Below the pieces are notes generated by a model. That model made no database searches. It was given only the letters and a program-made list of their open reading frames with translations, and was not told the DNA's origin. From positions 1-63,767 of the forward strand of contig JANWKE010000129.1 in the NCBI GenBank assembly GCA_025451535.1: 63,767 nt of DNA, written 5' to 3'. A program made the position numbers and the translations under genes. Positions 26,656 to 62,335 of this stretch are shown in pieces (position 1 is the first letter of the stretch; every line of letters begins with the position of its first letter). Source of the stretch: Verrucomicrobiia bacterium. Its GTDB lineage: Bacteria; Verrucomicrobiota; Verrucomicrobiia; Limisphaerales; UBA11358.

Positions 26656-27573
26656 TCATTGAGGTTTAGTTGTATGCCCAGTCTCTCCGAATGAAACGGG
26701 ACCATCCTCATTACGGAATGGCTCCCAACCGTATGAAATCCCGCTGGCAACTGCTGATTGTTTGGCACGGATGAATGCTGGGAACGAATCCTCAAAAACT
26801 AAAAAAGCCACATACACATCATTACCAGACAAGCCACCAAAATAGGAAGCAACTGCATTTGGGTCGAGACCTCGGCCCCGAATGGGTTCGGCAACCTCAT
26901 TATCAGCACCGATAGTCCAATTGATGTCAGCTTCATTGCGACTTAAATCGGAATTCCGGCACGGATAAATGTGATCGTAACGAACAATGATATAAATTAC
27001 CTGCTTGCCAGTGTCATGTTCCTTTGGCAAACGCAATGGCCGTTGCAATTCATTAACTTTGGCGGTCACTTGTCCCTCCATGTCAGCCAGACGTTGTTTG
27101 AGGCGTTTGACATTTTCTTCTGCTGCTGCAAGGCTGTTTTGAATTTGCAGCTTTCGCATTTGTTCCGTCGCAAGTTCGGAATTAAGAAATTTCAACCGTT
27201 CCGCAGGGTCAGCGGCATTTGCCGCATCAAGTTCTTTACCGTTTTGTAAAACCGTGTCGCGTATTTGTTGGATGGAATCTTGAAGTTCTTTTCGAGTTAA
27301 GAGAAGTGCTATCTGTTGTTTCCATTTCGGATGATTGGCCTTTGCATTTAGCGAGGCTGCAAGCTGAAGTGATTCCTGAAGATTGTTTTGGGCGAGCGCA
27401 AGCCGCCTTTGAAACATGTCTTGGGAATCGGATGATGTTGCACTCTGACTCTTTTCTTTGCTGGTGAGCAACACCACAAGCACCGCCAGCAGAATGATAC
27501 CCCCAAATGCGTTGCATAGAGTATCAAGCAGCAAATAAAGGCTGTCGGGTGGGGTTTTTCGGCGAAGGTTCAT
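26656..27573 (-). CDS. Stator-B-like single-span protein with coiled coil (second B-type subunit)
   Basis: The ATG at 27573, one base after the previous stop, gives MNLRRKTPPDSLYLLLDTLC and then NAFGGIILLAVLVVLL. This is one N-terminal membrane helix with Asp17 at its start, as in MotB/ExbD/TolR subunits. A long coiled coil (about 45-185) and an alpha/beta domain follow. That domain carries VIYIIVRYDHIYPCR, VAFLVFEDSFPAFI and ISYGWEPF. No OmpA-type peptidoglycan-binding motif is seen. It is the last gene of the seven-gene operon. With the ExbB-like channel it would form an ion-driven complex, which is inferred from layout. Confidence 0.75.
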   Translation of the reverse strand: MNLRRKTPPDSLYLLLDTLCNAFGGIILLAVLVVLLTSKEKSQSATSSDSQDMFQRRLALAQNNLQESLQLAASLNAKANHPKWKQQIALLLTRKELQDSIQQIRDTVLQNGKELDAANAADPAERLKFLNSELATEQMRKLQIQNSLAAAEENVKRLKQRLADMEGQVTAKVNELQRPLRLPKEHDTGKQVIYIIVRYDHIYPCRNSDLSRNEADINWTIGADNEVAEPIRGRGLDPNAVASYFGGLSGNDVYVAFLVFEDSFPAFIRAKQSAVASGISYGWEPFRNEDGPVSFGETGHTTKPQ

Positions 27574-27574
27574 T

Positions 27575-28657
27575 TTATGAGAGTCCAGCCCATTCAAGAA
27601 ATTTTTGCCACCAACTCTTATTTTTTTGCGGCGCGGGAGTGCTGGGTGCAGCGGCGGGTTGCGGATTGGTTGGTTTTGGAGAAGCCGCCGCCGGTGTCGC
27701 ACTGGCCGGAGTTCCGGAATTATTATTTGCGGCGGATGGCTGTTGGGCTGATGTGGTGGCGGACGTATCCGTCGGCAGCGTGGATTCATCAACTGACGGG
27801 AGAGGTGACAGATGTGGATTTTTGTCTTCTTCCAAAGCATCGTAGCCAACGTCAAATCCCTTGTCGCGAGCCGATTTAACGAGGTCTTGAAAAAGCCCTA
27901 TTCCCGACGGTTTAACTTCAAACACTACATACTGGTCGAGCGATTTTGCCGTGTCGAGATATGACCTAAAGGCGGAATCGGCGACGTCTTTATCCAACTG
28001 CTTGCGCTGTTCTGGATGGTCAACGCGCTGAATTGTAGCGCCCATACCATCAACAAAGACAACAATCGGCTCTTTTGTCGTCGCGCTTTTATCGGGGATG
28101 AGCCAGATTTGTCCGTCCCACTGACGAAGTTTCAAAAGTTGGGATTCCACACGCGCAACCTGCTGATCAAGTCCATTCATTTCGCTACGCACTTTAGCTT
28201 CCTGCTGGGCGATGGCTTCGTTTTCCTGAACCGTGCGTTGCAATGTGGCCTTCAAATCGGTTAGGCCAAGAACTTTGTCGCGCGCGGCGATGGCCGCTTG
28301 GCTGTCAGTCATCTGGTCGGCGAGAGCAGTCTGTTTCTTTTGTTCTTCGGAAAGTTGTGAATGTAACCTCGTTATGTCGGCCTGCAACTTTTCCAAATCA
28401 GGGGCGGTGTCCGCAGTTGCAAGCAACTCTTGTAAGCGATGGTTTTGCGAATCCACTTCGGCCTGTTGCGCGAGCGCCTCCTGAAGTCGCCGTTCCATTT
28501 CCGAGTTCGCAGCTTGTGAACTGCTGCTGGTTGGCCGGCCCAAATCTGTTGCCAGCAGCAAAGCGACGAAAATGAGCACCCCGCTGACGGCAGTGATGAT
28601 GTCAGCAAACGCGAAGAAGCTGATCTTCGAATCCAGGCTTCTCAGGCGGCTGCTCAT
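27575..28657 (-). CDS. Stator-B-like single-span protein with coiled coil (first B-type subunit)
   Basis: The N-terminus has KISFFAFADIITAVSGVLIF in a single membrane helix. Asp19 lies in an ADIITAV context very close to the YADFMTAM context of MotB's proton-carrying Asp. A coiled coil spans about 50-185. An alpha/beta domain (PIVVFVDGMGATIQRVDHPE, YVVFEVKPSGIGLFQDLV, GFDVGYDAL) follows, then a Ser/Pro/Ala-rich linker and an aromatic C-terminal WWQKFLEWAGLS. Its start overlaps the ExbB-like gene's stop as ATGA. It is probably one half of a hetero-B stator with the next gene. Confidence 0.78.
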   Translation of the reverse strand: MSSRLRSLDSKISFFAFADIITAVSGVLIFVALLLATDLGRPTSSSSQAANSEMERRLQEALAQQAEVDSQNHRLQELLATADTAPDLEKLQADITRLHSQLSEEQKKQTALADQMTDSQAAIAARDKVLGLTDLKATLQRTVQENEAIAQQEAKVRSEMNGLDQQVARVESQLLKLRQWDGQIWLIPDKSATTKEPIVVFVDGMGATIQRVDHPEQRKQLDKDVADSAFRSYLDTAKSLDQYVVFEVKPSGIGLFQDLVKSARDKGFDVGYDALEEDKNPHLSPLPSVDESTLPTDTSATTSAQQPSAANNNSGTPASATPAAASPKPTNPQPAAAPSTPAPQKNKSWWQKFLEWAGLS

Positions 28658-29589
28658 GACTTGGCAGGAGCGGATATTTGAGCAGACGGTGGTGGCTGTC
28701 GGTCAGCTAAACGGAGTTTGGAAACAATATGCGACTGGCAGTAGTCATTACACTCATCAAGAAAGGCCATTTCGCGTTTCTGCTGGAATGTAATCACGAG
28801 TTGTAAAATGAGCGTGAAAGTCAGGGCAACCAAGGTTGATTCAAAAGCCGTGGCAAGGCCGCCGGTGACGCCTTGGAGCGAAGCGCGAATCAAAGTTAAG
28901 TCGCCAGCCGCCTGTAAAGTTTGGGTGAACCTGCCGATGGCCAAACTCAATCCCAAAACAGTGCCGATGAATCCCAGCACCGGAATTGCCCAAACCAATC
29001 CGTTGACGATGGTATAACTGGAAGCGACCTGATCTTCATCATTTTCTGCCTGGGCGCGAAGAATTGCCGAAACGTCGTTGACCTGGCCGATGTTTTTGAA
29101 GTTTGACAAGGCGCGGTCAATGCGATTGAGCAAAATAAAATGGCGCGGCTGGTCAACCAATGCGTGAATGCGGGCGAGAACTGTGGCGGCGGTTGTTTCA
29201 GTCAGGATAAATTCAGGCTCCGCAGGCACGGCGGATAATTTCAGGGCACGCTCCTGCAACTTTAATTTCTTTCCCTTCAAAATTAAAATCGCAATTCCAC
29301 CAAAGAAAAAGAACGTGGCTGGAATCACGGCGAACTGATTGGTGGGACGCATGTATATTGTTGCGACTTTCGACACAACCGGCAGGTGGATGAATACGAA
29401 TAGCATCAAGGCATAAAGAATTCCTGTCAACAACGCACCAATGAGAAAAGCGAAGGCGTGGTTGACGCTAGTGTAGCGGCCGCCTTTGAAGCCGAAACGA
29501 TTTTCAATGTCGTCTTGTGACCACGCGAGTATATCAGGATCGCCCGATGCGCCGTCAGTAGGTTTTTTAGAGATCGGGAATTGTGCCAT
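28654..29589 (-). CDS. MotA/TolQ/ExbB-type proton channel protein
   Basis: The 311-residue protein has four membrane helices at about 45-68, 86-105, 196-219 and 246-268. A cytoplasmic domain lies between helices 2 and 3. The family signature covers helices 3 and 4: AIPVLGFIGTVLGLSLAI, then LQGVTGGLATAFESTLVAL. ExbB, TolQ, MotA and ZorA share this and form pentameric channels around a B-subunit dimer, using ion flow to do mechanical work. Two B-type genes follow directly. The partners upstream are a GTPase and a GAP1-like protein, not flagellar, TonB or Zorya C/D genes. Confidence 0.9.
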   Translation of the reverse strand: MAQFPISKKPTDGASGDPDILAWSQDDIENRFGFKGGRYTSVNHAFAFLIGALLTGILYALMLFVFIHLPVVSKVATIYMRPTNQFAVIPATFFFFGGIAILILKGKKLKLQERALKLSAVPAEPEFILTETTAATVLARIHALVDQPRHFILLNRIDRALSNFKNIGQVNDVSAILRAQAENDEDQVASSYTIVNGLVWAIPVLGFIGTVLGLSLAIGRFTQTLQAAGDLTLIRASLQGVTGGLATAFESTLVALTFTLILQLVITFQQKREMAFLDECNDYCQSHIVSKLRLADRQPPPSAQISAPAKS

Positions 29590-29631
29590 TTTATTATTAT
29601 TTTAATTTTATGATGATTGCAAAAGGGTTCG

Positions 29632-30258
29632 TCACTGGCTAAGCGACAAAAAAAATACAAATCCAATAACCCACAAGATGGTTCCGAGCATCCCGATATT
29701 TCTGCCAGAGCTTGTGCTGGAACGCCCGCTTGGATCCATCATACCTGCGTCCATTTCATGCAAATCGCCACTACCCATAACCCAGGCCGCTAAACATAAA
29801 GGGCCACAGACGAACAGACCGATCAATCCGAGGGTGAGAATTAGGCCGCCCCTGTGGGGCTTTAACGCGAGTTGTGGTGCCGCTTGAGCATGGCTTGTAT
29901 TGCTTTGGCGTTCCAACCCCGCTGCCAGCAAATCATTTTTTCTCCGCTCCTCAACGAGCGCTGCGGCGCGATATTGTTCTTCCCGCTCGCGCGTTTGCCG
30001 TTCTGCTTCTTCGCGCGCACGCCGCTCTTGTTCCACATGTGCCTGAAGTCGCGCACGAAGAACCACTTCTCGTTCCGCTACATAATCACGAATTGTAACC
30101 CATTTGCCCTCGTAAAAAATCTCATGCAGCAAACCGATTTCATTCGCTGCAAGTTTCGCCTCAATGACAGACGCGAGATACGGGCCTTCTTGCCTGCCAC
30201 GCCAGCGCACAAGGAATTTTGCGCTGTCTCCGTCGGATAATTCGGCGAAATTATTCAT
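29632..30258 (-). CDS. GYF-like domain, coiled-coil, two-span membrane protein
   Basis: Residues about 14-60 (KFLVRWRGRQEGPYLASVI, then IFYEGKWVTIRDYV) follow the pattern of the bacterial GYF_2-type domain, which binds peptides. A charged Arg/Glu coiled coil spans about 65-115. Two hydrophobic helices at about 137-160 and 187-206 anchor the protein, with the GYF end in the cytoplasm. Its start overlaps the preceding gene by four bases. Within the operon it is a plausible adaptor between the cytoplasmic GTPase and the membrane channel, which is inferred. Confidence 0.65.
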   Translation of the reverse strand: MNNFAELSDGDSAKFLVRWRGRQEGPYLASVIEAKLAANEIGLLHEIFYEGKWVTIRDYVAEREVVLRARLQAHVEQERRAREEAERQTREREEQYRAAALVEERRKNDLLAAGLERQSNTSHAQAAPQLALKPHRGGLILTLGLIGLFVCGPLCLAAWVMGSGDLHEMDAGMMDPSGRSSTSSGRNIGMLGTILWVIGFVFFLSLSQ

Positions 30259-33206
30259 GGTTGCACCGTGTCTTGAAACAGCGGTGGCAGCGCGCCCCTG
30301 AAAGAAGCGTCACTTGGATTCACACCGGCTTGGGCGAGATATTCTTTGCAAGGGTTGTCTAGGGAGAACAACGGCGACAACGGCATAGCCGATTCTTTGA
30401 ACGGCTGCCCGGCATCAATTTTTGCTGCCAGCAATACCGGCTGTTTGCGGGCAGCGCTGTAACCGAATACTTCTCCAGAAACAGAATTATCAACGAAGTT
30501 GGGTTTGCCGTCCAAACCCACGAAGCCTACATATTGCAGCCCGCTCTTTGAAACAGCCCGCGCGAGGGTCAACAACCCGTTTGCCTGCTTCGCGTATGAA
30601 ATTGATTTCACCGAATCAAAAAACTGTTCTAGCTTTCCGCCGCATGAATTTACCTTCCCAGCCACAAACCAATCCCCGCTCTCCAATTGTCCGCCGACAA
30701 TGGACTTGATTTGAGCTTCGTGTATCCGTGCCGCCGGGCAAAACGTGAGTCCCCAAGCATCGGGCTGCAAATTCATTAAATCCATCAGGCGCAGGAATAG
30801 ATACGCTCGGAAAAGTGGCGAACCTTCGCGCGAATCCTTGATGGAATCCAAAACTTCCAGCAGTGGCTTTGAGTAAGAATCACCCGACCAAACTTTTTCC
30901 AAGCCTACGGAATGAAATGCCGAGGTTTCGTTAAGAGCGCCGATTTGCTCAAGGCGGAAAATGGGTTGAGTCGGAGTCAATTTATATTGGCCGTCAAAGT
31001 ATCCATACTCACGATCCTCAAAGCTGGCGGTGGTCGCGGATGCCGATGGTGTCCAGGCCTTAATTGTTTTCCAGCCGGTCGAATCATCAAACCCGCCAGC
31101 CGTAATCCAGTCCACAGTGTTTTTGCCTTCGCTGTCAAGCCAGAGCCGAAAATGTTGGTGAATCGCATTAACCGCCGTATCATTGTTAAGCTGCTCGAAA
31201 ATCTGCCGTTCCGCTGGCATCATAACTTCAGGAACAAAATTCACCGGCTGCTGTTTTTCGATGTAAGCCCAAGTGCTTGCGTTGGTAGCCTCCAAAAGAA
31301 TTCTGAGGGCTGTTTCGTCACTCACATCCAACGATTGAACCGTGAAAGCAGCAGTTGCCGCGGGTGAAGTTGTAAATTCAGACGACGTAATGAGTTTTAT
31401 TCCACCGGAATATTCTTTGACTGTTCGGGCTTTCTGAATTGCAGCCAGTCCATCATCGAGTTTTTTTAGTTCTCCGTTGTAAGCTGCAAATTTGCCATGC
31501 ACCGTGGCCGAGCGTTCAAGCAAATCGCTTCTCAATTGAAGGTTCTTTCCAAATCCCGATTCACAGTCCTGCATTTTCTGCACAAGGTCGGACAACACGG
31601 CCAGTTGCTTGGTGGTTTTTTTCAGCGGTGAGCGATAATCCAATTCGTCACATTGCTTTTCAGCAGATGAAATCCACTGCTCATAGAGTCCATTTACCAC
31701 TGTGCCACTGTCCGCTAAATAGCTTTGCCATTGATTTTCAAAAGCTTGAAGGCGCGGCTCGTTTTCGGTTTTCAAATCTGGCGCGAGCGCGTTAAAAGCG
31801 TCGCGTGCCAGGGAGAGTTGGTCGGCGATACTCGCCAAGCGAGACGCATTTGGTTCGCCGGCGAGTTGCTGCGGCAGATTGTTGAACGCCGTTTCAAAAT
31901 TTGCCAGCAGAGCGTGTTCCTTGGTCGCAAAAGTTTCGGCGGCGGCAATCGTATTCGCATCGCCAACTTTTTCGTTGCGCGCTCGTTCCAATAAATTGTC
32001 CGCCGCATGAACTTGTCGTTGGGTAATCGCCTCTTGGAGTTGCTTGGAGAAATTGCGGGCTTTCATCTGCCCAAGCACGAGCCACGCGACGGTAGCGCCA
32101 ACAAAAAGAATGACGGTGCTGATGGCAAAAACAACGCGCCGACGAATCGCGGTTCGCCGGGCGATCTCGGCTTCGAGCAAAGCGGAACGCTTGCGAAAAC
32201 TGGACGAGGCTTCCTCTGGAATTGGCCGGGTGAAATCAGTCAGCGAACGCCAGACTTTGTGCATTCCCTCGTAGTCATCGCGCAGTTCCGGGAATTCGAC
32301 GTAATGAGCCGATGTGTCTTTTTCTTCGCTCTGATGGATTCGGTGATGCAACTCGCCGAGCAGAGATTGAAACTCACGCTCTTTTTTATCTTTTACCTGT
32401 TCACCTCGTGCCCAAGTTTCAATATTGTCGAGTTGCTTCAAGGTGGCGGCAGGCAATTCCACTTTGAACTCCTCTTGCAGCCGGTGGATGAAATCAAGTT
32501 TCGCCAGCGCATCAAGCCATCGGGATTCACCTTTGAGCTTGGCCGCTTCTTCCAGCAAGCATCCGCAACGAACCCCCTGTGCTTTGCACCACACTTCGCC
32601 GTCCGGTTTGTTTTTGAAACCAAACGCTTCTATGGTTTCAATTTCTGCCACCAACAGCGCAGGTTCTGCTCCCTCCAACGAACTGCCGAGATGTTGCAAT
32701 CTCGCCGCCAACACCTTCGCGTCGAGCCGTGCCAGTTCAGAAGCCGCATTGTTGTCTGATGGATTTAGGCGCGTGATGCTCTGCAATACTTTTAACGCTT
32801 CCTCATCGTTTCGACTCAACACCGCGCGGCGATAAGTCGCGTAAAGCGGATGGTCGGTCGTGATGCCTAACGCGTAACATTCATTCAGGGTCTGGACCGA
32901 ACGCGCGTCAATTCTGTCTGCGATTGGCAGCGAATTTTGCTGACAATAGCCACGCCACTCATCCGAACCACGAAATTCCAGCACCGTCACCAAGTCGAGG
33001 AGATTGGGGGTGGTTTCTGCAAGTTGAATCGCTTGGGGGCAATCTCCTGCTTTGATCATCGCCTCACATTGTTGCAGGCGTAGATTCGCGGCATTACACG
33101 CGGCGACGTAATCTGCGGCCAGCTTTGGCGCGATTTCCGGGTTGCCGCTCTGCTGAAGCAGTTCGGAAATCTTCCGCACGAGGCGTTGGGTTTCGAGGAG
33201 CGTCAT
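30255..33206 (-). CDS. Large single-span membrane protein of unknown function (983 residues)
   Basis: I do not recognise a family. Residues 1-350 are helical, TPR-like in rhythm, with a Cys/Trp-containing segment (GEVWCKAQGVRCGC). One membrane helix lies at about 356-378 (VVFAISTVILFVGATVAWLV). It is followed by a long helical region (about 385-600) and a more beta-rich C-terminal part with FDDSTGWKTIKAW, FCPAARIHEAQIKS and GYSAARKQPVLLAAK. No catalytic motif is evident. With the N-terminus cytoplasmic, the large C-terminal part would lie in the periplasm. It starts 24 bp after the GAP1-like gene and is clearly part of the operon. Confidence 0.7.
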   Translation of the reverse strand: MTLLETQRLVRKISELLQQSGNPEIAPKLAADYVAACNAANLRLQQCEAMIKAGDCPQAIQLAETTPNLLDLVTVLEFRGSDEWRGYCQQNSLPIADRIDARSVQTLNECYALGITTDHPLYATYRRAVLSRNDEEALKVLQSITRLNPSDNNAASELARLDAKVLAARLQHLGSSLEGAEPALLVAEIETIEAFGFKNKPDGEVWCKAQGVRCGCLLEEAAKLKGESRWLDALAKLDFIHRLQEEFKVELPAATLKQLDNIETWARGEQVKDKKEREFQSLLGELHHRIHQSEEKDTSAHYVEFPELRDDYEGMHKVWRSLTDFTRPIPEEASSSFRKRSALLEAEIARRTAIRRRVVFAISTVILFVGATVAWLVLGQMKARNFSKQLQEAITQRQVHAADNLLERARNEKVGDANTIAAAETFATKEHALLANFETAFNNLPQQLAGEPNASRLASIADQLSLARDAFNALAPDLKTENEPRLQAFENQWQSYLADSGTVVNGLYEQWISSAEKQCDELDYRSPLKKTTKQLAVLSDLVQKMQDCESGFGKNLQLRSDLLERSATVHGKFAAYNGELKKLDDGLAAIQKARTVKEYSGGIKLITSSEFTTSPAATAAFTVQSLDVSDETALRILLEATNASTWAYIEKQQPVNFVPEVMMPAERQIFEQLNNDTAVNAIHQHFRLWLDSEGKNTVDWITAGGFDDSTGWKTIKAWTPSASATTASFEDREYGYFDGQYKLTPTQPIFRLEQIGALNETSAFHSVGLEKVWSGDSYSKPLLEVLDSIKDSREGSPLFRAYLFLRLMDLMNLQPDAWGLTFCPAARIHEAQIKSIVGGQLESGDWFVAGKVNSCGGKLEQFFDSVKSISYAKQANGLLTLARAVSKSGLQYVGFVGLDGKPNFVDNSVSGEVFGYSAARKQPVLLAAKIDAGQPFKESAMPLSPLFSLDNPCKEYLAQAGVNPSDASFRGALPPLFQDTVQP

Positions 33207-33230
33207 TTCAAATGTTTCAATTCCTAAGTT

Positions 33231-35465
33231 TCATCGCGTTGCTTGCTTAAATGATACGCGGTCAAACGCGGCACGAACACCGGCATTGGTATTTCCAGAA
33301 CATACAGCAAAGCCGACCAAATAATTTTGGTCAGGCATAGATATTTCATTAGTTCCAATACCAGTCCAATTCGTGCCATTCGTGGAAAAAGCTCCTGAAA
33401 AAGTGTTGGCCTTTCGGGTTATTTTAAAGGAAACAGGCAGTTGAGTCACCGGGAGATTGGTGAACCTGCAAATTGTATCCGCCGCAGGACGCTGTCCCCA
33501 TAAGATATTCGTCTGCGACAGTCCAATGAATACAAATGGGGCGTCCGCATTTTTCGACCCGCGCATCATTATACCGCGCCGAGCTGTTGTTTCATCTATT
33601 TTGCCGGAAAGCCGGGCGACGAATTCCACAGAATTTGAAATGCTCTGATACACAAAAAAGAAGTTGTCTGATTTTCCGAAGATATTATCACCGTAACCTG
33701 TCAGCACAAATTTGATTTTTGCTATTTCAAATGAAACAGATGATTTTTCGCAATCTTTTCCGATAGGTGCTTTATTCCACGGTGAAGGAAGTTCTTCAAA
33801 ATCATCTTGCAGGGGGATTTTATTGCGGGCGGTGGCTGAAGGGATGCTGTTATTCGCTGTATCGGTCGGTGTTCGATCCGATCTGGGCGGCGGCGAATTC
33901 GTGGGCTCAGGAAAGCGTGGCCATTGGATACTGATGCTCGTCGCCGACCCTATAGAATTTGAAATTATTACAAAAAATGAGGCTGAGTTACTCAGCGCAT
34001 TTTTCCCCAATGGCAAAATCGAATTGGTGGTGGGTAAAAACGGTTGATTGTTTTTATACCATTGGTAGATAAGAGGCTTTTTTCCACCAGCGGCAACATT
34101 GATGCTCATACTCCCGTCCTCATTGGTCTGAATTGTGGGTTGCGAAGTTATGTCTGGGGGCTTTCTTCCTCTCAAAACTAGCGCGGCTACTAACGCGCTG
34201 GCTATCAGAACTATTGCTAGAATTGTAACGAGGATTTTATTTCGTCGTAGCCTATTCTGAAAAATCTTCTGTGCTTTTCCAGCTTCGAGTCGCCGCCGCT
34301 GCTTTTCAATATCATCTTCCGTCTTTTGATATGAAACACCTTTTGCAGCGGTGCGCGTTCCAGCGTCAGATTTTACCTGCGCCAGTTTTATTTTTTTTTC
34401 AACAGACAAAGTTGTCACTCTGCTTTGAGCATTCCCCGCACTGTTGGTGACACTCACAACGTAGCGTGAAATGCCGAGTGCAGGATTTGGAACTATGAGT
34501 TCTGGTTTTGTTTCGCCCGGCAAAACCTGTCCGTTGTTTGTGCGGTCAACCGAAAACCACTGGTAGGTTGGGTTGGGAATGCCTTCCGCTTTGGCTGTGA
34601 AATGCACCGACTCACCTTCGGTGATTCGAGAATCTTGCGGCTCGGCGACAAATTGCGGGGCTTGCCTGCCAGTTCTAGCAAAGGCCGTCTCCTCAACAGT
34701 GACCTTTGTTGCGCGCACGGCAGAAAGCGCACGGCAATCAGGGGTGGCAGACCGGTTTGCCGCTGGATTATCGGAGTGAATACAGCGCCAGCGAAAGTCC
34801 GCCGGATTGTCCTGTTCCTGCATCGAGGTTGTAAATGTGGAATTCCATGCGGCAGTGCGGAAGTCCCTGCGTGTGTCTCGAACTTCCAAAAGTTCCAAAC
34901 TTTCCGCGATGAGTTCTAAAACTGTTTCATCGGCCTGGTCGTCCACACGGAATGAAGCTCCCGCGCGGGCTTCCAGCAACCCATAACCATTCACGGCGTC
35001 GCCAGTGACCCGTTGCCATGTTTGCGCCGGGACATTCGTCTTGCCTGCGAGAGCGGTGAGTTCAGCCCAATCTTCATTTTCCAGCAACTGCGGTTCTTTC
35101 GCCCACGACTTTATCCAACCCGGCCAGTCGTGCAAGATTACGGGTGGCGTGGGAAACTGTCGGATTTCTTCTGGCGTAAAAACCAGATGATGCGCGATGA
35201 AATTTGTCCGCCCCGTGAAATCCAAGCCCGCATCCTGAATCCGGCTTAATACATGGAAACGAGTTCCGCGAATGTCCACAATGCGACAGGAAAATATCGG
35301 ACGTTCCTGCCCGCCACTCAACGAAAGATGCTGGTAGTAACAAAATTTCTCCAATTGAAGCATGAGCGCTTCCCTCATCAACGCGCTTCGCGCGACGGTG
35401 CAGTGCCCCGAACGTCCGGCAACAATTCCGCGCGGCGCACTGGTGTAGATGAGTTGCTGTGGCAT
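33231..35465 (-). CDS. GAP1-N2-like protein with Ig domains, membrane helix and C-terminal beta-domain
   Basis: The N-terminal 230 residues match the GTPase-associated protein 1 N-terminal type-2 domain as I know it. QLIYTSAPRGIVAGRSGHCT, FIAHHLVFTPEEI, TWQRVTGDAVNGYGLL and TFTTSMQEQDNPADFRWR are in order. An Ig-like domain (about 268-356), a basic helical stretch, one membrane helix (about 411-431) and a second Ig-like domain (about 437-520) follow. A Pro/Ser/Thr linker leads to a concanavalin-like beta-domain (FVARLSGKID, ARRGIMMRGS, FSTNGTNWTGIGTNE). GAP1 proteins are encoded with TRAFAC GTPases in predicted conflict systems. Here the partner GTPase gene ends 28 bp upstream. Confidence 0.78.
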   Translation of the reverse strand: MPQQLIYTSAPRGIVAGRSGHCTVARSALMREALMLQLEKFCYYQHLSLSGGQERPIFSCRIVDIRGTRFHVLSRIQDAGLDFTGRTNFIAHHLVFTPEEIRQFPTPPVILHDWPGWIKSWAKEPQLLENEDWAELTALAGKTNVPAQTWQRVTGDAVNGYGLLEARAGASFRVDDQADETVLELIAESLELLEVRDTRRDFRTAAWNSTFTTSMQEQDNPADFRWRCIHSDNPAANRSATPDCRALSAVRATKVTVEETAFARTGRQAPQFVAEPQDSRITEGESVHFTAKAEGIPNPTYQWFSVDRTNNGQVLPGETKPELIVPNPALGISRYVVSVTNSAGNAQSRVTTLSVEKKIKLAQVKSDAGTRTAAKGVSYQKTEDDIEKQRRRLEAGKAQKIFQNRLRRNKILVTILAIVLIASALVAALVLRGRKPPDITSQPTIQTNEDGSMSINVAAGGKKPLIYQWYKNNQPFLPTTNSILPLGKNALSNSASFFVIISNSIGSATSISIQWPRFPEPTNSPPPRSDRTPTDTANNSIPSATARNKIPLQDDFEELPSPWNKAPIGKDCEKSSVSFEIAKIKFVLTGYGDNIFGKSDNFFFVYQSISNSVEFVARLSGKIDETTARRGIMMRGSKNADAPFVFIGLSQTNILWGQRPAADTICRFTNLPVTQLPVSFKITRKANTFSGAFSTNGTNWTGIGTNEISMPDQNYLVGFAVCSGNTNAGVRAAFDRVSFKQATR

Positions 35466-35493
35466 GGTTGGGCGTGGGTGCCTTTTCTAAAAT

Positions 35494-36891
35494 TTAGGGA
35501 GTGTCTTGCGGCAGGGTCGTTTTACCATCTGCAAACAAGGCTGGACAAACTTGTGACAGAATCCAAAGCAGAGGAATTTCGACGAAAGCAGGCTGGAGTT
35601 TGGCCGGGTCAGGAACATATTCACCCGGCCCAATTTTGATCGGCGTGTGTCCGAACGAACTTGCCGCAAAGAACATGACGTTGCTGCTCAAGGCTTCCGC
35701 ATTGGCGACAACCGCCGGACAAAGTTGATACATGAGCGCGCGGACGATGTTGGAATTTTCTTCGATGGCAGCGATGTCGAGTTTACCGTCTAGCACGGGG
35801 TCGCGAAGTAGTTTGCCGTTCAATAAATGCAGCCATACATCGCACTTGCCGACCACGAAAGCGACCGGCGTTTGGATATTTTCGCCGGGACGCAAATTGC
35901 GAATCATTTGGATACGCGCACGCATCTCGGCAAGAATTATGTCCTGCTGATCCACCACCGGCTTTTCAATTTGGGGGTCTTTTGTGTCGCGAAGGATTCG
36001 ACGGAATTCTGGGCTATTGAACGGGTCGAACAAATACAGGATGCCGGCGGCACTTGCGATGTGTTGCGCCCCTGGTTGTTCCACAATGTTGACGCCCGGT
36101 TGAAAATGCTCACCTGCATTATCGTAGAAAATCAAGGCGCATCGTTCACGCGTCTTATCCTCGGATGCCAGCGTATAAACGAACGGACGCGGAAGCGCGA
36201 CCATACGCCCCTGGCGTGGCAGACGTTCATACATCGCACCTTCAAAAACAGTTTTTGCCAGCTTTGCCTGCGCGGGGGATTGCGCGCCGAAAAGTGCTTT
36301 GCGCATATCATTGACCGGCGCATTGCCTGTCGGGTCGCTATCCTGAAAAACAATTCCGAATTCGCGATACAAAGTTGCTGGCAGAACTTTTGTCAGGACA
36401 GTCAAGAAATAGGATTTCCCGGCACTTTGGTCGCCCACCAACGAAATGATGTGGTGCGGCATCCCAAGAAAACTTGGCGGTAGTTTTCTGCGACAGTGCG
36501 GGCAGGCAATTTCCGAAGACGGTAGGCTCATGGCGTCGAGTGCCTGACCTGCATTGTTGAATCGGGTTGCGAGAAATCGCTGTTGTGCGTCTTCGCCAAG
36601 AAGCGGATCGCCACGCAATGAATCATGCACCGCTATATGCATAATGTCGCCCGCATCAAATCGCAGCCAGCAAACGGGGCACGTCATGGCTCCGTCAACA
36701 TTTGGATTCGTAAAAGCAGGGTCTCTGGCCGGCCCACCGGGTGAATCAGGCACTGATGGCGGAAGCGAAACTTCCGGTTGCGGGACAAGAAATTCCATGC
36801 CGCAGTCCGGGCAATCAACTTTCATTCCGGCGGCTTCTTCATCCGCCTTCAGCTTCCGACCGCACGACGGACATAAAAATCGAAATTCCAT
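35494..36891 (-). CDS. Zinc-ribbon TRAFAC-type GTPase of a GAP1-associated system
   Basis: An N-terminal zinc ribbon (CPSC at 7-10, CPDC at 27-30) is followed by a second metal site (CPVC at 71-74, His residues 85-89, CPHC at 130-133). The P-loop domain has G1 GDQSAGKS (153-160), G3-like YDNAGEHF (about 256-263) and G4-like VVGKCDVW (about 347-354). The order and the Lys-x-Asp motif indicate a GTPase rather than an ATPase. It heads the seven-gene minus-strand operon and probably acts as a cytoplasmic switch for the membrane proteins downstream. Promoter elements upstream are not clear. Confidence 0.82.
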   Translation of the reverse strand: MEFRFLCPSCGRKLKADEEAAGMKVDCPDCGMEFLVPQPEVSLPPSVPDSPGGPARDPAFTNPNVDGAMTCPVCWLRFDAGDIMHIAVHDSLRGDPLLGEDAQQRFLATRFNNAGQALDAMSLPSSEIACPHCRRKLPPSFLGMPHHIISLVGDQSAGKSYFLTVLTKVLPATLYREFGIVFQDSDPTGNAPVNDMRKALFGAQSPAQAKLAKTVFEGAMYERLPRQGRMVALPRPFVYTLASEDKTRERCALIFYDNAGEHFQPGVNIVEQPGAQHIASAAGILYLFDPFNSPEFRRILRDTKDPQIEKPVVDQQDIILAEMRARIQMIRNLRPGENIQTPVAFVVGKCDVWLHLLNGKLLRDPVLDGKLDIAAIEENSNIVRALMYQLCPAVVANAEALSSNVMFFAASSFGHTPIKIGPGEYVPDPAKLQPAFVEIPLLWILSQVCPALFADGKTTLPQDTP

Positions 36892-37650: not shown

Positions 37651-38128
37651 TATTCCAAAACGAATCAAACAATTGCCAGCAAGAATGGAATCTGGAATAA
37701 AATTCGTTTGATGGCTCTGGATGATCCACGCTGTATTGAGCCAGTGCAGATTGACCGGGATTTGTTTGAAAAACCGTGGCGGGGTGATTGAACATCTTAG
37801 CTTGATTGGCCCGTCTAGGTAACACCTGTGTCCTTTATTTTTCACCAAATTTGAGGTTGGCGAATCTTCTGTCGGCTGCATCAAGCCTGCCCGGTATCCA
37901 CCGATGAGAATTTCCGTTGTGTTCATCCCGCCTGCACCCGCGCCTCTGGTTGCTCCGCGCAACATCGCGCCGGCGGTCGCAACATCTTTGCGCCCGCCGT
38001 CACTCAGTTGCTAATGCTCCGCTGCCCGACGGCGCGGGCACAGGCGGGTGCGTTTTGTCAGGAGCGGTCCTGCTCTCTCAGGGCGGGTGAAGAGAGCAGT
38101 TCCGCTCCTTCAGAACAAAACGCAAAAC
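37651..38128. other. Intergenic stretch with a long inverted repeat
   Basis: No convincing gene was found. A 117-residue minus-strand frame covers much of it but resembles nothing. The right end holds a GC-rich segment and the hairpin described separately, just before the radC start. Confidence 0.5.
38051..38122. repeat. 72-bp imperfect inverted repeat upstream of radC
   Basis: CGTTTTGT / ACAAAACG form the outer arms. AGGAGCGG-nn-CTGCTCTCT pairs with AGAGAGCAG-nn-CCGCTCCT inside, around a 12-base loop. Together they give about 25 paired bases with two small interior loops. It ends 6 bp before the radC ATG. It may be a REP- or MITE-like insertion or an mRNA leader structure. Confidence 0.7.
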
Positions 38129-38674
38129 ATGAACACAAATGAAAACCTCATCTCCACTGGATGCCCCGCAACCGCTCCGCAACCCATCAACCAACTCGTC
38201 AAGCCGGTAAAATTCCCGGCTCAACCGCAGGAATGGAAAATCGTTTCATTGAGGGAATGTCCCACTCCCGACACCATGCAACAATGTGAAACGCCTGATC
38301 AGGCAGCCGCCTATTGGAAAGCGCATATCGCCACTCATCCTTACTTCAATCCTGAATGTGAATGTTTGGTGGTATTCATCCTCAACACCCGCCGACGCAT
38401 AAAAGGTCACTACTTGGTGTCCATTGGCACGATGGATACGATTCTCTGTCATCCCAGAGAAGTTTTTCGTTTAGCAATTATGGCAAGTGCTGCCGCAATC
38501 ATCATCGCGCATTCTCACCCGAGCGGTGATCCAACTCCGTCGGAAGCCGACATCAAAATCACCCGTGATCTCATTCGAGCTGGTCAACTTCTCAAAATCG
38601 AAGTTCTCGACCACATCGTAATTGGAAATCCAAATCATTCCAGTCTTCGCAGTCTTGGATTCTTTTACAGCTAA
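38129..38674 (+). CDS. RadC family JAB/MPN-domain protein
   Basis: The 181-residue protein carries the JAMM metal motif in IIIAHSHPSGDPTPSEADI (His-x-His...Ser...Asp) and the downstream LLKIEVLDHIVIG. Together these define the RadC family found on islands, phages and plasmids. The N-terminal 60 residues are Pro-rich and unrelated to the HhH region of chromosomal RadC, so this is the short mobile-element form. The role is unknown; it is not an established DNA-repair enzyme. The ATG at 38129 was chosen because upstream sequence belongs to the hairpin. Confidence 0.88.
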   Translation: MNTNENLISTGCPATAPQPINQLVKPVKFPAQPQEWKIVSLRECPTPDTMQQCETPDQAAAYWKAHIATHPYFNPECECLVVFILNTRRRIKGHYLVSIGTMDTILCHPREVFRLAIMASAAAIIIAHSHPSGDPTPSEADIKITRDLIRAGQLLKIEVLDHIVIGNPNHSSLRSLGFFYS

Positions 38675-38707
38675 CCGCTCTCGGTTTCCGAGGAATCGGA
38701 GGTCGTT

Positions 38708-41700
38708 ATGCTTCGGCTCCGTTTCAGTCGTCTCTCCACTGCGTTTCACTTTCCCGCCCGCCAAACAGAAGTCCGAATCCGAAGATTGTTTTCCGTCAAA
38801 AAGCTGTCATCCTGTCGCTTAAACCTGAAAACAGAGCAAACATCAATAAACCGCAGACTCCAGATCAAAGAATCACTGGAAGGCATGACCTATGCACAGC
38901 GTCACAAGGAATTTCAGTGGCTTGCGGTTCAACTTGCCAAAACGAAATGGCCTGAACTGGAAGCAACTCAAGAGCAAGCTGACGGCGGTGAGGATGCAAC
39001 GTCGTTTTTCGTCGGCAGCGATGGTTTGCGGCGACGACTTGCCTGTTCACTCACCGGCACGCTGGAAAAAGTTAAAAAGGATGTGGCTCGGCTAAGAGAA
39101 CGAAACGTCCAATTAGATTTTCTCGTTTTCGTGACGCCTGTTCCAGTTACCAACCTAGAGGTTTCAGACTGGTGCGAAGCGGTGAAAAAAGAATTTGGAC
39201 ATGGACTCCACGTTATTCCACAAGCGGAATTGATCACGATGTTGGAACAACCACAAAATGCGTGGTTGTGCCGCCAATATCTTCTCCTTGATTTTGGCGA
39301 CGAACCGAAGCTGGCCGAATTTGAGGTTTCAATGCGCCGTGCGGCAACTGAATTGTTGCAAGGCTGGAAAACAGAATATCGTTACGACAAAAGCAAAGCA
39401 GTTGAACTTACTTTGGTGCAGAATTTCCATGAATCCGGGAAGCCCGGTGTCTCAAAAATTCAATCCAAGCAGTTATCTCTGGCTGAATTGGCCGGTTTAA
39501 TTGGTCGAGGAAATCGCGCCATTCTGCTTGGCCAACCAGGTGCTGGAAAAACCTTCACGCTAATCCAACTGGCAGATTCATTTTTACAGGACGACGCCGC
39601 GCCCATTCCATTCCTTGTTTCTCTGCCCGGCTGGGCATCTGACGGCGGCGACTTTTTGCCTTATTTGGAAAAGCGACTCGTGGCTTTTGGCATAAATGCT
39701 GATGTAATTGCCAAACTGAGTGCTGCTGGGCGTATTGTTTTCTTGATTAACGGCTGGAACGAAATTCCAGACGGGTTTGCTGGCAGGGCAAATCTTCAAT
39801 TAAGAGACTTCATTCTCAACAGTCCGGCAACGGGGTTAATCGTTTCGACCCGTGAGAGCCGCGTGCCTGTTCCCTTGTCATACGCAAGCACCATACACGT
39901 CAGACCGCTATCTTTGCACCAAAAGCTGGACATCATCGGGAAATCCGGGCTTGGAAATCCACCGGCACTTGTTCGCGAATTGGAATCCAACGCTGCACTT
40001 GCAGAAGTCACGGACACGCCGCTTTTTCTAGCTGCTATCATTGATTTGGCGCGTTCCGGCGAACCACTTCCGGCTACGCGTTCAGGGATTCTTAAGAAAT
40101 TCATCGAACAAACCGAGTGCAATCCAGAACACGCGGCGGCTTTGAGCGATCCGCCATGTGCTGGCTTTCACCGCCAATACTTGAGCCGCATCGCTGGCGT
40201 GATGACACACGCAGGAACGGTAACACTGCCATTGAATGAGTTGCTCGCCGCAGTTGCAAAATGCAGCACAGCCCTAAAAAATGATGGGCACTTGCCATCG
40301 GTGCCACAATCTTCTGCCGTGGTGGATGCTCTGGTAAAACATCATTTGCTGGTGTTATCGCCCAGCCTCGGTGACGACTACCGGTTTATTCATCAACAAT
40401 TTCAAGAGTGGTTTGCGGCTGAATGGTTATACGAGCGGGCCACTGAGTTGGTGCGAAACGAAACCCCCGACACTGTTTTCGCATTTCAGAGCGGAATTTT
40501 GAATCATATTCGATGGCAAGAACCGTTGGTGTTTCTATTGGAACGACTCGCAACAGGCACAGATGAGCAACATCGAATGGCTGCAAAACTGATCCGCTGG
40601 GCGATGTCTTTGGACTTGATTCTGGCCGCCCAGTTGGCCGGCATTTCGGGAACGCACGTTTGGCCTCACGTGCGCGATGAATTAAGCGCAGCACTCCGCC
40701 ACTGGTATAATAATAAAAAGGGCGAGCATCATCGTTACAGCGCTTTGGCCGCCATGTTTGCTTCCGGCGCGCCTGATTTCCAAGACATCATCTGGCCGTT
40801 GCTGGAATCAGATAACCAGAATTCCCGGCTGGAAACATACAGGATATGGCGTCCATTTCCGTTAACCAGTCTTGGACCCGACTGGAAAAAGCGGTTTGAA
40901 AAATGGAATGCACAAAGAAGGGCGGAATTTGTTCATGAAATATCATGGCAATCAAATCAAGAAATTGTTGGCCTTGCACGCGAGTTAATCAAAACCGATG
41001 ACAGTCCATATGTAAAATTGGCGTGCTTGGACTTGCTGAGAGATGCCGGAGCTTACGAAACGTTCGTTGAAATTGTTGATGACCCTGCGTTCAGGGAGTG
41101 GACGAAAGGGTTTTTGCCCCAGGTTCTCACCAGATTGCCAAAACGGTGTCGCAGCCACTTCATTCCGCAGTTGAAAGCGGCCTTGGCTGATACACAGGAA
41201 CTGAACGCCCGCCGGGTGATTCTAGGAATACTGCGAACGGCTGATGATCCTGACTGGATAAGCCTGACCAAAGCCGAAATGAACCGGGTATTGGCTACGC
41301 CCGGAATATCGTTCCGACCGAGCAATAATGTAATGCTTCCGAGCACGCAAAAAGCAGAATTGCCGAATGCCGCTCCTTGCATTGCGGAATATTTGGAAGC
41401 CACATATCAGGTAACGCCAGACTGGGCGACCGAATGGTTGGCAAACCAACTCGGACAGGGACAGTTTTGGTGGGAACCATTTACAAATTATCTAACCAAG
41501 ATGCCTGATGCCCTGTTGGAAAAAGTAGCGGCAACGGCGTTGGACACAAAACTGGACGCAAATGAGCTTAGGAAGCGGGCAGTTTTGTTGGCGGGCAGTG
41601 ATGCACCGGTCGTTGCCAAAACGTTGCTCAAAGAATATTTGGCGTTTAGCCCGGTGGAAAACAGACAACCAGGTGCTCCGACTTACCATCGAGGGAACGC

Positions 41701-43447
41701 TTTGGAAGCAGGACTTCATGAACTACCCGTGACGCATTTGGTGGATGCTGTGCTTGCACAAGCCCAAGACATGACCGATTTCAAATCACTCCAAAAACTG
41801 TTTAGAATAGTTGCTCACAGCGCCGTTTCACAAATTTCAAAAGAACAAAAACATTCCCTTCGCTCGTTTGTTTTTCGTTTGGAAGAACTCCAACCTGGAA
41901 CAATTAACGACAAGGCTGGATTTCAGGCTGAACTTGCGATGTTTTTGGGAGCGGTGGGCCAGTCGGAGGATGCAAAAATTCTCGAAGCGTGGATTGAAAA
42001 GGAAAGACAACGATTGGCCGACGAGGAAGTGGAGAAACAGACTAAATTAACGGAATGGAATAATGCCGGGCGTAAAACCCGCTGTCCTGTGTCATTGTGT
42101 AAAATAATTCACTGGAATTCATACCAGCGAGCGCTCGTCCGCCTTGATTGCCCCGAAGCAGTCGAGGTCTTTCTCCGTCTCTTACACACACCTGACCTGA
42201 TGGGTGAAGCTGCTGAAGGACTATTGTTTTTAACTCACGATTACAGCCAAGAGGCAAACTCTGTTTTTGGCCAACGGCCAAAATATTCGGAAATATACGA
42301 ACGGCGGCAAGCTGGCCAAGCAGGAAACGGGAAGAGGAATGAAACAGTTAAGCGTTATGCTGACGCGATCTTTAATTCCATTCAAACTTTTCTGCCGGAA
42401 ACCGAACTGGCGGATTCTAAATTTCCGCGCCGTGAAATTATGCGTGCGATTGCCGCACTCGCAGGACTCAACGATGTGCGAGCAATCCCGCTTCTCTTGA
42501 AGTTTTCTTCGGACAAAAACTATGGCTGGATTATCGCCAATGCCTTTCATCATCTCACGGTTAAAGGTATTCTGCTCCCAGGAAAACCTGTAGCTGAAGC
42601 GCTTGAGACTTTCATTGCAGATCACGAAAAACAGTCTTGGGGATCGAATACTGATAACTGGTATATCGTTGCGCATTGTCTCGCTGTCCTTCTATTTAGC
42701 GATACGCCTTCTGTCGGAGTGGCCCAGATTCGACGGCTACCGCCTAATCGCGTAAAATCCCACAACATCAGGGAAATATTGGAATTGCTCGGTGCTTGCA
42801 GTGCGCCAGAAGCAGCCGCCTTGCTTATTGAGTTTTCAGCCGTTCCCGAAATCACGCAGCGTTATTTCTACGAACTCGTGTCGGCATTATCCGAAAACGT
42901 AAACCAGCAAGCTCGGCTTGCTTTGCTTTCTTTGTTAAACCGGCTGTGTTTGGGTGAACTGTCGGCGGGGCATGACATGGTTGATCCGCTGGCCAAAGCA
43001 ATTGCGCGAGTTGCACGGCTTGATGAAACCATCTGGACCGACATCAAAACCCGCTGCAAAAAATCAGGTTCGGCGGTGGAGCGAAACATTCTTTCGATAA
43101 TCCTGCATGCGGTTGGCACTGACGACGCTGCGTTAGCTCTCTGTGATCTGATTCACGACGAATTTCCTATCCAATATTGGATGGAGCAATTGGTTGAAAA
43201 TGCGGCAACGACTAGAGTCCCGTCGGGCGGGAGTGCTTATTATCTAAAACCTAATGACGCAACAAGCCTGAGAAAACGTCTTGTCGGAATAGTTCAGAAT
43301 GACGTAACACGACGAACAAACGCGTTAGAATTGCTTGCAGTAATTGCGCAAAGCCGACTCGAACACGGCTATCCAGTAAATGAACCATTTCACCCTGACA
43401 TTGAAATTCTCAAACGAAGTTCAACTCCTTGGCAATTATATGGATGA
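38708..43447 (+). CDS. Giant NACHT-type STAND NTPase with nuclease-like N-terminus
   Basis: The N-terminal 190 residues (EFQWLAVQLAKTKW, ADGGEDATSFF, LRRRLACSLTGTLEKVKKD, LDFLVFVTP) follow the strand-helix order of restriction-endonuclease-like effector domains. The NACHT core begins with Walker A LLGQPGAGKT (about 273-282). The Walker B region reads IVFLINGWNEIP, with Asn348 where Asp is usual. A winged-helix-like region with FIHQQFQEWFAAEWL follows, then about 900 residues of helical HEAT-like repeats, the presumed sensor. GGAGG lies 5 bp before the ATG at 38708; an alternative ATG at 38885 would drop 59 residues. An antiphage role is inferred from the architecture. Confidence 0.8.
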   Translation: MLRLRFSRLSTAFHFPARQTEVRIRRLFSVKKLSSCRLNLKTEQTSINRRLQIKESLEGMTYAQRHKEFQWLAVQLAKTKWPELEATQEQADGGEDATSFFVGSDGLRRRLACSLTGTLEKVKKDVARLRERNVQLDFLVFVTPVPVTNLEVSDWCEAVKKEFGHGLHVIPQAELITMLEQPQNAWLCRQYLLLDFGDEPKLAEFEVSMRRAATELLQGWKTEYRYDKSKAVELTLVQNFHESGKPGVSKIQSKQLSLAELAGLIGRGNRAILLGQPGAGKTFTLIQLADSFLQDDAAPIPFLVSLPGWASDGGDFLPYLEKRLVAFGINADVIAKLSAAGRIVFLINGWNEIPDGFAGRANLQLRDFILNSPATGLIVSTRESRVPVPLSYASTIHVRPLSLHQKLDIIGKSGLGNPPALVRELESNAALAEVTDTPLFLAAIIDLARSGEPLPATRSGILKKFIEQTECNPEHAAALSDPPCAGFHRQYLSRIAGVMTHAGTVTLPLNELLAAVAKCSTALKNDGHLPSVPQSSAVVDALVKHHLLVLSPSLGDDYRFIHQQFQEWFAAEWLYERATELVRNETPDTVFAFQSGILNHIRWQEPLVFLLERLATGTDEQHRMAAKLIRWAMSLDLILAAQLAGISGTHVWPHVRDELSAALRHWYNNKKGEHHRYSALAAMFASGAPDFQDIIWPLLESDNQNSRLETYRIWRPFPLTSLGPDWKKRFEKWNAQRRAEFVHEISWQSNQEIVGLARELIKTDDSPYVKLACLDLLRDAGAYETFVEIVDDPAFREWTKGFLPQVLTRLPKRCRSHFIPQLKAALADTQELNARRVILGILRTADDPDWISLTKAEMNRVLATPGISFRPSNNVMLPSTQKAELPNAAPCIAEYLEATYQVTPDWATEWLANQLGQGQFWWEPFTNYLTKMPDALLEKVAATALDTKLDANELRKRAVLLAGSDAPVVAKTLLKEYLAFSPVENRQPGAPTYHRGNALEAGLHELPVTHLVDAVLAQAQDMTDFKSLQKLFRIVAHSAVSQISKEQKHSLRSFVFRLEELQPGTINDKAGFQAELAMFLGAVGQSEDAKILEAWIEKERQRLADEEVEKQTKLTEWNNAGRKTRCPVSLCKIIHWNSYQRALVRLDCPEAVEVFLRLLHTPDLMGEAAEGLLFLTHDYSQEANSVFGQRPKYSEIYERRQAGQAGNGKRNETVKRYADAIFNSIQTFLPETELADSKFPRREIMRAIAALAGLNDVRAIPLLLKFSSDKNYGWIIANAFHHLTVKGILLPGKPVAEALETFIADHEKQSWGSNTDNWYIVAHCLAVLLFSDTPSVGVAQIRRLPPNRVKSHNIREILELLGACSAPEAAALLIEFSAVPEITQRYFYELVSALSENVNQQARLALLSLLNRLCLGELSAGHDMVDPLAKAIARVARLDETIWTDIKTRCKKSGSAVERNILSIILHAVGTDDAALALCDLIHDEFPIQYWMEQLVENAATTRVPSGGSAYYLKPNDATSLRKRLVGIVQNDVTRRTNALELLAVIAQSRLEHGYPVNEPFHPDIEILKRSSTPWQLYG

Positions 43448-52278: not shown

Positions 52279-52283
52279 TCATG

Positions 52284-52357
52284 TGGATGCGGCGAGCCTC
52301 GGACTCGCAATCTGCGATTGTAAGGAACGCCAGGTTTGCCAATTAACCTACGCACCC
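52284..52357 (-). tRNA. tRNA-like sequence inside the IS, anticodon arm imperfect
   Basis: On the minus strand a 74-nt cloverleaf can be drawn. The acceptor is GGGTGCG/CGCATCC (one G-U), positions 8-9 are TA, the D arm is GGTT-AATTGGCA-AACC, the T arm is GCGAG-TCCGAGG-CTCGC, the variable loop has five bases and the discriminator is A. The anticodon arm is imperfect: GCGTT/ATCGC has a T-T mismatch and there is an extra base before it. The loop can be read CCTTACA (anticodon TTA) or, shifted by one, CTTACAA (TAC, Val). CCA is not encoded. It could be a tRNA or a decaying copy. Confidence 0.5.
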
Positions 52358-56300: not shown

Positions 56301-56763
56301 CAACAATGTCACCCAATCGCAGTTTGACATTCTCCGCGCCGCCGAATGTGCGCCGAATACACCCGCGCTGCCCCGGCAGGAAAATCACCATCCTCTGGTC
56401 AAGAAGGGAGTCGAGTTCGTTGTCGCCGAGGAAAAAACCGTCGGTGGCCAGTTGGGTCGTCCCTCCGGTGCGCGGTTCCGCACCTATGAACGGCTGAAAC
56501 GCCATGCTGAGCAAATCAAGGGCACGCTGTTCGATACCCCACAGTTCGCCAAGGCCATTGAGGAAATTTATCGGTTCCCATTGCGTCAATCTGCCACCGA
56601 CACGCTCAATCGCCAGCTTCGCTCCGGCATCTCGGATGAAAAGCTGGCCGAACTCGTCATCGCCCTGCGGGACGATGACCGTCTCTGTATCGTCCACGAG
56701 GAGGAACAAACCCACGAACCGAAAATTATTTGTTCGCTCGGGTTAAGCGCGGCGAATCCCTGA
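53356..56763 (+). CDS. PLD-domain SNF2-type helicase of a restriction/defence module
   Basis: The N-terminal 200 residues form a phospholipase D-like domain with HAKLYLCF and [11 protein letters not shown] (an HxK...GSSN motif), a likely nuclease or its relic. Residues from about 255 form a superfamily 2 SNF2-like helicase. Motif I is [16 protein letters not shown], motif [14 protein letters not shown], motif III LSATPYN, motif [17 protein letters not shown] and motif [13 protein letters not shown]. The 1135-residue size and the methylase gene starting 5 bp after its stop suggest a two-protein system that modifies self DNA and attacks foreign DNA. It resembles but does not equal DISARM or type I systems. 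Confidence 0.88.
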
Positions 56764-56768
56764 TCAAT

Positions 56769-61165: not shown

Positions 61166-61218
61166 ACAAGAACATCAAATACCGCCTCGGCCGCAACACC
61201 GAGGAATTGGACGAATAA
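61162..61218 (+). pseudogene. Duplicated methylase C-terminal tail (18-residue frame)
   Basis: The frame MNKNIKYRLGRNTEELDE repeats the end of the Eco57I methylase (NYDIKYRLGRDPEEEE). At DNA level 19 bases are identical: 60046-60064 and 61172-61190, ACATCAAATACCGCCTCGG. It starts by overlapping the DUF3644 stop. It marks the point where the DUF3644 gene was inserted into, or duplicated around, the end of the methylase gene. Confidence 0.8.
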
Positions 61219-61241
61219 ATCTCCTAATAAAAGGAATACCT

Positions 61242-61553: not shown

Positions 61554-61563
61554 GATTCATATT

Positions 61564-62316: not shown

Positions 62317-62335
62317 GCAAAACCGAAACTGCTTG

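Follow-up and report, generated by a model that had tools for sequence, protein, structure and literature searches.

A 63,767-nt stretch of DNA from a Verrucomicrobiia bacterium (GenBank assembly GCA_025451535.1, contig JANWKE010000129.1, positions 1 to 63,767), referred to here as the window, carries a seven-gene operon (g1 to g7) that joins a zinc-ribbon GTPase and a GAP1-N2 protein to an ion-motor trio, namely a MotA/TolQ/ExbB-family channel subunit and two different single-span proteins with a membrane Asp (B1 and B2). The junction between the GTPase/GAP1 module and the motor trio is real, conserved and co-inherited in Verrucomicrobiota, and two uncharacterised machines that had been described separately appear to be one. 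The gene content suggests, with a probability that we place at roughly 0.57, that the operon encodes a trans-envelope machine in which a MotA/TolQ-type ion motor works under the control of a GTPase. All seven open reading frames lie on the minus strand between 26656 and 36891 (Table 1), and their tight spacing, claimed in an earlier note made from the sequence alone (the original prediction), was confirmed, with intergenic distances from g1 to g7 of 28, 24, −4, 42, −4 and 1 bp.

Evidence for the junction comes from a sample of 388 genomes spread over Verrucomicrobiota, in which GAP1-N2 was searched for independently of the channel. GAP1-N2 scored above its cut-off in 71 of these genomes, 78 loci were retrieved and the seven families called in each, and 57 loci had enough downstream DNA to be evaluable. 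The GTPase is present in 52 and g3 in 49 of the 57 evaluable loci, while the channel, B1 and B2 are all present in 28, of which 26 keep the order g1-g2-g3-(g4)-g5-g6-g7. In the reverse search, the channel profile gave 37 matches at E up to 4e-103, with the next match only at 2e-67. Thirty of these 37 subfamily channels, the window's included, lie within a GAP1-N2 operon. For the remaining seven the contig stops partway through the operon, and in five of these cases g3 and a GYF gene are still present beside the channel. Of the 35 genomes that carry a subfamily channel, 33 have GAP1-N2 where 6.5 would be expected (Fisher p 2e-25 without correction for kinship), and the pairwise distances of six of the proteins correlate with one another across 35 loci (Mantel r 0.81-0.92). 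The outcome that the original prediction had named as fatal to itself, that the GTPase/GAP1 pair and the channel/B pair occur mostly apart, is therefore not what is seen for this channel subfamily. Because the gene order recurs over the phylum and the channel and GAP1-N2 co-occur beyond expectation, the seven-gene set is not a chance arrangement.

The identity of the motor half rests on its channel and its two B proteins. The g5 product matches the Pfam family MotA_ExbB at 4.7e-8 (33.3 bits, curated cut-off 22.9), and a comparison of the channel profile with solved structures returned no sequence match. Conserved Pro and Thr residues are expected along the ion path of the MotA/TolQ/ExbB family, and Pro203, Thr210 and Thr252 of g5 are invariant in 20 of 20 aligned channels. 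The membrane Asp19 of B1 is likewise invariant (20/20), and 18 of 19 B2 sequences retain Asp17, the exception being L044 with Gly. The two B proteins share homology along their length (hhalign probability 99%). Structure predictions were built on shallow alignments; the B1 model (mean predicted local distance difference test score, pLDDT, 70) shows an alpha/beta domain at the C-terminus, preceded by a membrane span and a long coiled coil. The structure that it resembles most is TolR (Foldseek rank 1, E 1.4e-3; VIA-align Z 8.2, root-mean-square deviation 3.0 over 84 residues), followed by ExbD (VIA-align Z 7.6). Three-gene cassettes without a GTPase were also observed (L023:1630-6529, L024:5603-10450, L025:4871-10238 and L027:9362-14024). 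They encode B1, B2 and a zinc-ribbon channel, 850-1100 aa in length, that has a long coiled-coil tail, and they look like a so far undescribed relative of the motor.

In the switch half, the best Pfam family for g1 is DO-GTPase2 (1.9e-5, 24.9 bits), just below the cut-off of 27, and this family is matched by all 20 aligned g1 homologues (best 1.6e-8). The homologue alignment shows that the G and GKS of the P-loop, D257, G260 and E261, and K349 and D351 are invariant, and since the P-loop Lys/Ser, Asp257-x-x-Gly-Glu and Lys349-x-Asp are all kept, g1 should be a GTP-binding and GTP-cleaving enzyme. Some g1-homologous GTPases of other lineages carry a GYF_2 (5/20) or FHA (4/20) domain, which ties the switch to an adaptor. 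In several relatives (L080:16343-17461, L088:2049-3143, L095:2139-3197 and L103:1972-2928) the gene directly upstream of the GTPase encodes a member of an unknown protein family, some 320-380 aa long and apparently with a signal peptide; the two members scanned had no Pfam match.

The GAP1-N2 domain of g2, encoded 28 bp downstream of g1, was called by Pfam at 8.7e-24 together with Ig and DUF1349 domains, and the Ig-like and lectin-like (DUF1349) region that follows its transmembrane (TM) span probably lies outside the membrane. GAP1-M was detected in 14 of 26 GAP1 homologues and was not detected in the window copy, GAP1-C did not appear in domain scans of the GAP1 proteins, and FNIII had no match in the window proteins, the GAP1 protein having Ig-like domains instead. 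The g3 structure model has low confidence in its C-terminal half (mean pLDDT 64), and its Foldseek matches are generic helical repeats only, at E above 0.001. Pfam made no GYF call in the window copy of g4, so that the assignment is based on family membership and on motifs that can be recognised in the sequence; one g4 relative scores GYF at 2.1e-5, just below the Pfam cut-off. In most loci a GYF gene separates g3 from the channel, and in some it is fused to a PrsW-type protease. L037:7655-9926 has two GYF genes in this interval, of which one is fused to a PrsW intramembrane protease and the second apparently to a membrane region that is RDD-like.

Table 1. Genes of the operon, in order of transcription, with predicted domains and TM spans
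Gene	Coordinates	Strand	Predicted TM spans	Description
g1	35494..36891	(-)		zinc-ribbon GTPase, DO-GTPase2 family, 465 aa; two CxxC-type ribbons, P-loop GDQSAGKS, DNAGE, GKCD
g2 (GAP1)	33231..35465	(-)	1	GAP1-N2 (residues 2-129, cytosolic), Ig-like, TM 411-429, Ig-like and DUF1349 lectin-like
g3	30255..33206	(-)	1	983 aa; helical-repeat (TPR-like) cytosolic half, TM ~353-381, helical then beta-containing C-terminal half
g4	29632..30258	(-)	2	GYF-like N-terminal domain and two TM spans
g5	28654..29589	(-)	4	MotA/TolQ/ExbB-family channel subunit; invariant Pro203, Thr210, Thr252
g6 (B1)	27575..28657	(-)	1	TM with Asp19, coiled coil, TolR/ExbD-like C-terminal domain
g7 (B2)	26656..27573	(-)	1	TM with Asp17, coiled coil, C-terminal domain homologous to B1; start most likely the ATG at 27573 (305 aa) rather than an upstream TTG

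We hypothesize that the seven proteins would work together as follows, and every step beyond the sequence evidence is one that we infer. A pentamer of the channel subunit would enclose one B1:B2 heterodimer, and this pair could be turned or pulled as ions move past its two membrane Asp residues. A cue would alter the state of the GTPase, and the change may reach the channel by way of GAP1, g3 with its helical repeats and the GYF adaptor, either assembling or releasing the motor. Contacts with the cell wall, the outer membrane or a ligand may be made on the outer side by the lectin-like and Ig-like region of GAP1, by g3 through its C-terminal half, and by B1 and B2 through their TolR-like domains, and where an eighth gene with a vWA domain is present, which is not the case in the window, its product might carry force outward. 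The outcome would be a cue-switched force at the envelope that could serve adhesion, gliding, secretion or envelope repair, functionally like the action of MglA on AglRQS, a MotA/2xMotB-type motor of Myxococcus that the MglA GTPase binds and probably activates (PMC9120999).

The original prediction had also inferred a GTPase that gates an ion motor through GAP1 and GYF proteins. The junction of modules that it presupposed is conserved and co-inherited; the defence and mobile-element framing that it gave to the operon was not supported. A wider proposal, which we offer tentatively and at somewhat less than even odds, is that the GAP1-N2/DO-GTPase modules of the phylum act as regulatory heads of envelope machines, with an ion motor as the machine in one case and a PilM-type complex in another family, and are not primarily immune switches, which would make this operon the first recognised class of ion motor gated by a zinc-ribbon GTPase. 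In many genomes of the phylum, a gene set predicted to be immune and a gene set predicted to transduce force, both uncharacterised, form a single co-inherited operon, and each gains a testable partner: the GTPase gains a physical output in ion flow and force, and the orphan motor gains a switch. The finding also calls into question whether GAP1 systems should be read as defence by default.

Several observations weigh against a motor under GTPase control. About half of the evaluable GAP1-N2 loci have no motor (full trio in 28/57), so that the GTPase-GAP1-g3 core does not need one; these motor-less loci form stable classes, one family beside rnpA and yidC and another followed by PilM-like and pilus-alignment-like genes, and the motor is therefore one of the partners of this core. 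Channel/B/B trios also stand alone in the phylum, with more distant channels and in ordinary chromosomal settings, from which it follows that the motor probably descends from an older trio of this kind. Unrelated RNase-H-like folds score nearly as high as TolR and ExbD for the B1 model, and the fold match taken alone is therefore moderate evidence; combined with the TM span and the membrane Asp, the predicted TolR/ExbD-like fold is coherent. Finally, the distribution is patchy (24 of the 78 genomes of one family), the operon is found in about 8 of 49 genomes of the window's genus, the window included, and it lies at different chromosomal sites in different genera, a combination that fits an accessory trait, defence included.

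A role in defence is accordingly the first alternative to be weighed. GAP1 and g3 would detect a phage or a competitor at the cell envelope, with the GTPase setting a threshold, and the opened motor would dissipate the ion gradient or act on the envelope, stopping the infection. Conflict roles have been predicted for DO-GTPase/GAP1 systems (PMC7159879), the patchiness and varied sites just described agree with such a role, and in PADLOC the channel comes closest to ZorA models (2e-5). The window copy also lies in DNA of lower G+C, the operon having 0.50 against 0.56 on its left and sharing its composition with the lower-G+C part of the right side, where relaxase, coupling protein, NACHT-type, restriction-type and SIR2 genes are found. 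These neighbours, among them the NACHT, restriction and SIR2 genes named in the original prediction, are real, and the defence genes among them are peculiar to this window. The 104 flanking proteins from about 35 relative loci are mostly metabolic or regulatory, with a handful of scattered PADLOC matches; because these flanks are not enriched in defence genes, a mobile defence island was rejected as the general context of the operon. The G+C content of the relatives' operons follows that of the host, from 0.29 to 0.66, viral contigs gave no matches to the operon, and plasmids gave no match to GAP1 and only weak partial matches of the channel to other channels. None of the seven proteins is a nuclease, a toxin or a Zorya C/D/E effector in Pfam and PADLOC searches, leaving the operon without a recognisable effector enzyme, and the motor-less relatives have the conserved housekeeping neighbours rnpA and yidC. 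Together these findings leave a defence role weakly supported, and we regard it as unlikely.

The genes around the operon include several features of their own. The region 53356-63508 of the window encodes an SNF2-type helicase with a PLD domain, an Eco57I-type methylase, a DUF3644 protein and a SIR2-like protein, and looks like a separate defence cluster. At 38048-43447, a RadC/JAB protein adjoins a 1579-aa protein that combines a nucleotide-binding domain with the NACHT C-terminal domain NCAB2. ARAGORN called a tRNA with anticodon tta, which would read a stop codon, at 52283-52357 near relaxase and transposase genes, and this may be a tRNA-like remnant.

A second alternative is that two units merely share one transcript, the GTPase/GAP1/g3 part regulating something else and the motor trio simply powering uptake or a Tol-like process. 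The core does exist without a motor in many genomes, and related trios exist without the core, but the channel subfamily is never seen outside the operon (37/37 in it or broken inside it) and the protein distances are strongly correlated, which makes this arrangement improbable. That the operon is a variant of Zorya is least credible of all, since the weak ZorA similarity and the four TM spans of the channel are outweighed by the missing long cytosolic tail, a B domain whose model points to TolR/ExbD and away from a Pal-like fold, and the lack of any ZorB-E match in PADLOC.

Both the partners of the core and the end of the operon vary among relatives. At L077:2936-14001 and in L055, L062, L075, L058 and L047, a GTPase, a short GAP1 and g3 are followed by a PilM-like gene, two small membrane proteins at PilN/O/P-like positions and often an AAA ATPase. 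More canonical loci (L112:1090-9482 and L085:9680-18624) encode a large protein with a DnaJ-like start, then a GTPase and a GAP1 (GAP1-N2/M), and L112 has a second, membrane-bound DO-GTPase after GAP1. In many relatives an eighth gene follows B2 and often encodes a TM span, a Gly/Ser-rich linker and a vWA domain, identified by its metal ion-dependent adhesion site (MIDAS) motif in at least 12 relatives and confirmed by Pfam in those scanned; other eighth genes encode a zinc ribbon with ankyrin repeats, or Sel1 repeats. L017 and L018 have other genes at this position, no eighth gene is present in the window, L030, L036 or L038, and a vWA gene downstream of B2 is absent from these four and from L037. 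In the window, a transposase remnant begins 165 bp downstream of g7, and the segment 24496-26490 holds the truncated start of a UvrD-like helicase and the C-terminus of an IS21-like transposase, remnants that lie at the G+C boundary. Loss of an eighth gene through an IS21-like insertion next to g7 is possible; the explanation is not needed, because L030 and L038 also have no eighth gene.

Comparison with known systems places each half of the operon in published company. Like Zorya, it has a MotA-family channel and an Asp-bearing B protein; unlike ZorA, its channel has no tail, with about 49 residues after the last span. OmpA (Pfam) and ZorB (PADLOC) had no match in the window proteins, ZorC, ZorD and ZorE matched none of the seven at E up to 1 (PADLOC), and membership in Zorya was rejected on the tail and the C/D/E genes, with the predicted B-domain fold pointing the same way. 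With TolQR and ExbBD it shares the TolR/ExbD-like periplasmic domain, and it differs from them in its four-TM channel, its two different B proteins and its GTPase module.

The switch half corresponds to the GAP1-N2 DO-GTPase systems. The DO-GTPase/GAP1 systems were defined by Kaur et al. 2020 (eLife, PMC7159879), who counted GAP1-N2 with GYF/TM proteins among them and predicted that they act in conflict; the accessible text of that article describes a zinc-ribbon DO-GTPase directly upstream of GAP1-N2, TM spans in GAP1, a GYF/TM protein and Verrucomicrobia hosts, all of which recur here. The same text names no MotA/TolQ/ExbB channel or TolR-like protein, and its three themes (tubulin, HSP70 and kinase) are absent from this operon; GAP1-M was not detected in the window copy. 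The motor half corresponds to an uncharacterised cluster of the Planctomycetes-Verrucomicrobia-Chlamydiae (PVC) group that comprises TPR, tolQ-like, paired heterologous tolR-like and vWA genes (Mol Biol Evol 2025, PMC12204202, section 8). The two share the motor composition and an upstream helical-repeat gene (g3, g5, g6 and g7), and many relatives also have the vWA gene after B2; in contrast, the accessible part of PMC12204202 mentions no GTPase, GAP1 or GYF, and a vWA gene is missing from the window. In the eighth genes of the present set, the SHLS motif reported there was not found. Judged by its gene content, the PVC cluster is very likely this motor half. No GTPase is mentioned either in the accessible text of a 2025 survey of MotAB relatives, and in the literature searched, as far as the texts were accessible, no paper joins the GTPase/GAP1 half to the motor half. 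The original prediction's statement that it knew of no description of the two joined in one operon stands for the junction; each half has been published separately (PMC7159879, PMC12204202), the link between GYF and GAP1-N2 was already known, and only the link between GTPase/GAP1 and motor is claimed as new. The nearest functional parallel is MglA-AglRQS. The present operon has a zinc-ribbon DO-GTPase and GAP1 in place of MglA and MglB, its only Pfam GTPase family match being DO-GTPase2 with no MglA-type small GTPase, and it contains no other gliding genes; what the predicted machine shares with MglA-AglRQS is a GTPase that controls an ion motor built from one MotA-like and two MotB-like proteins (PMC9120999).

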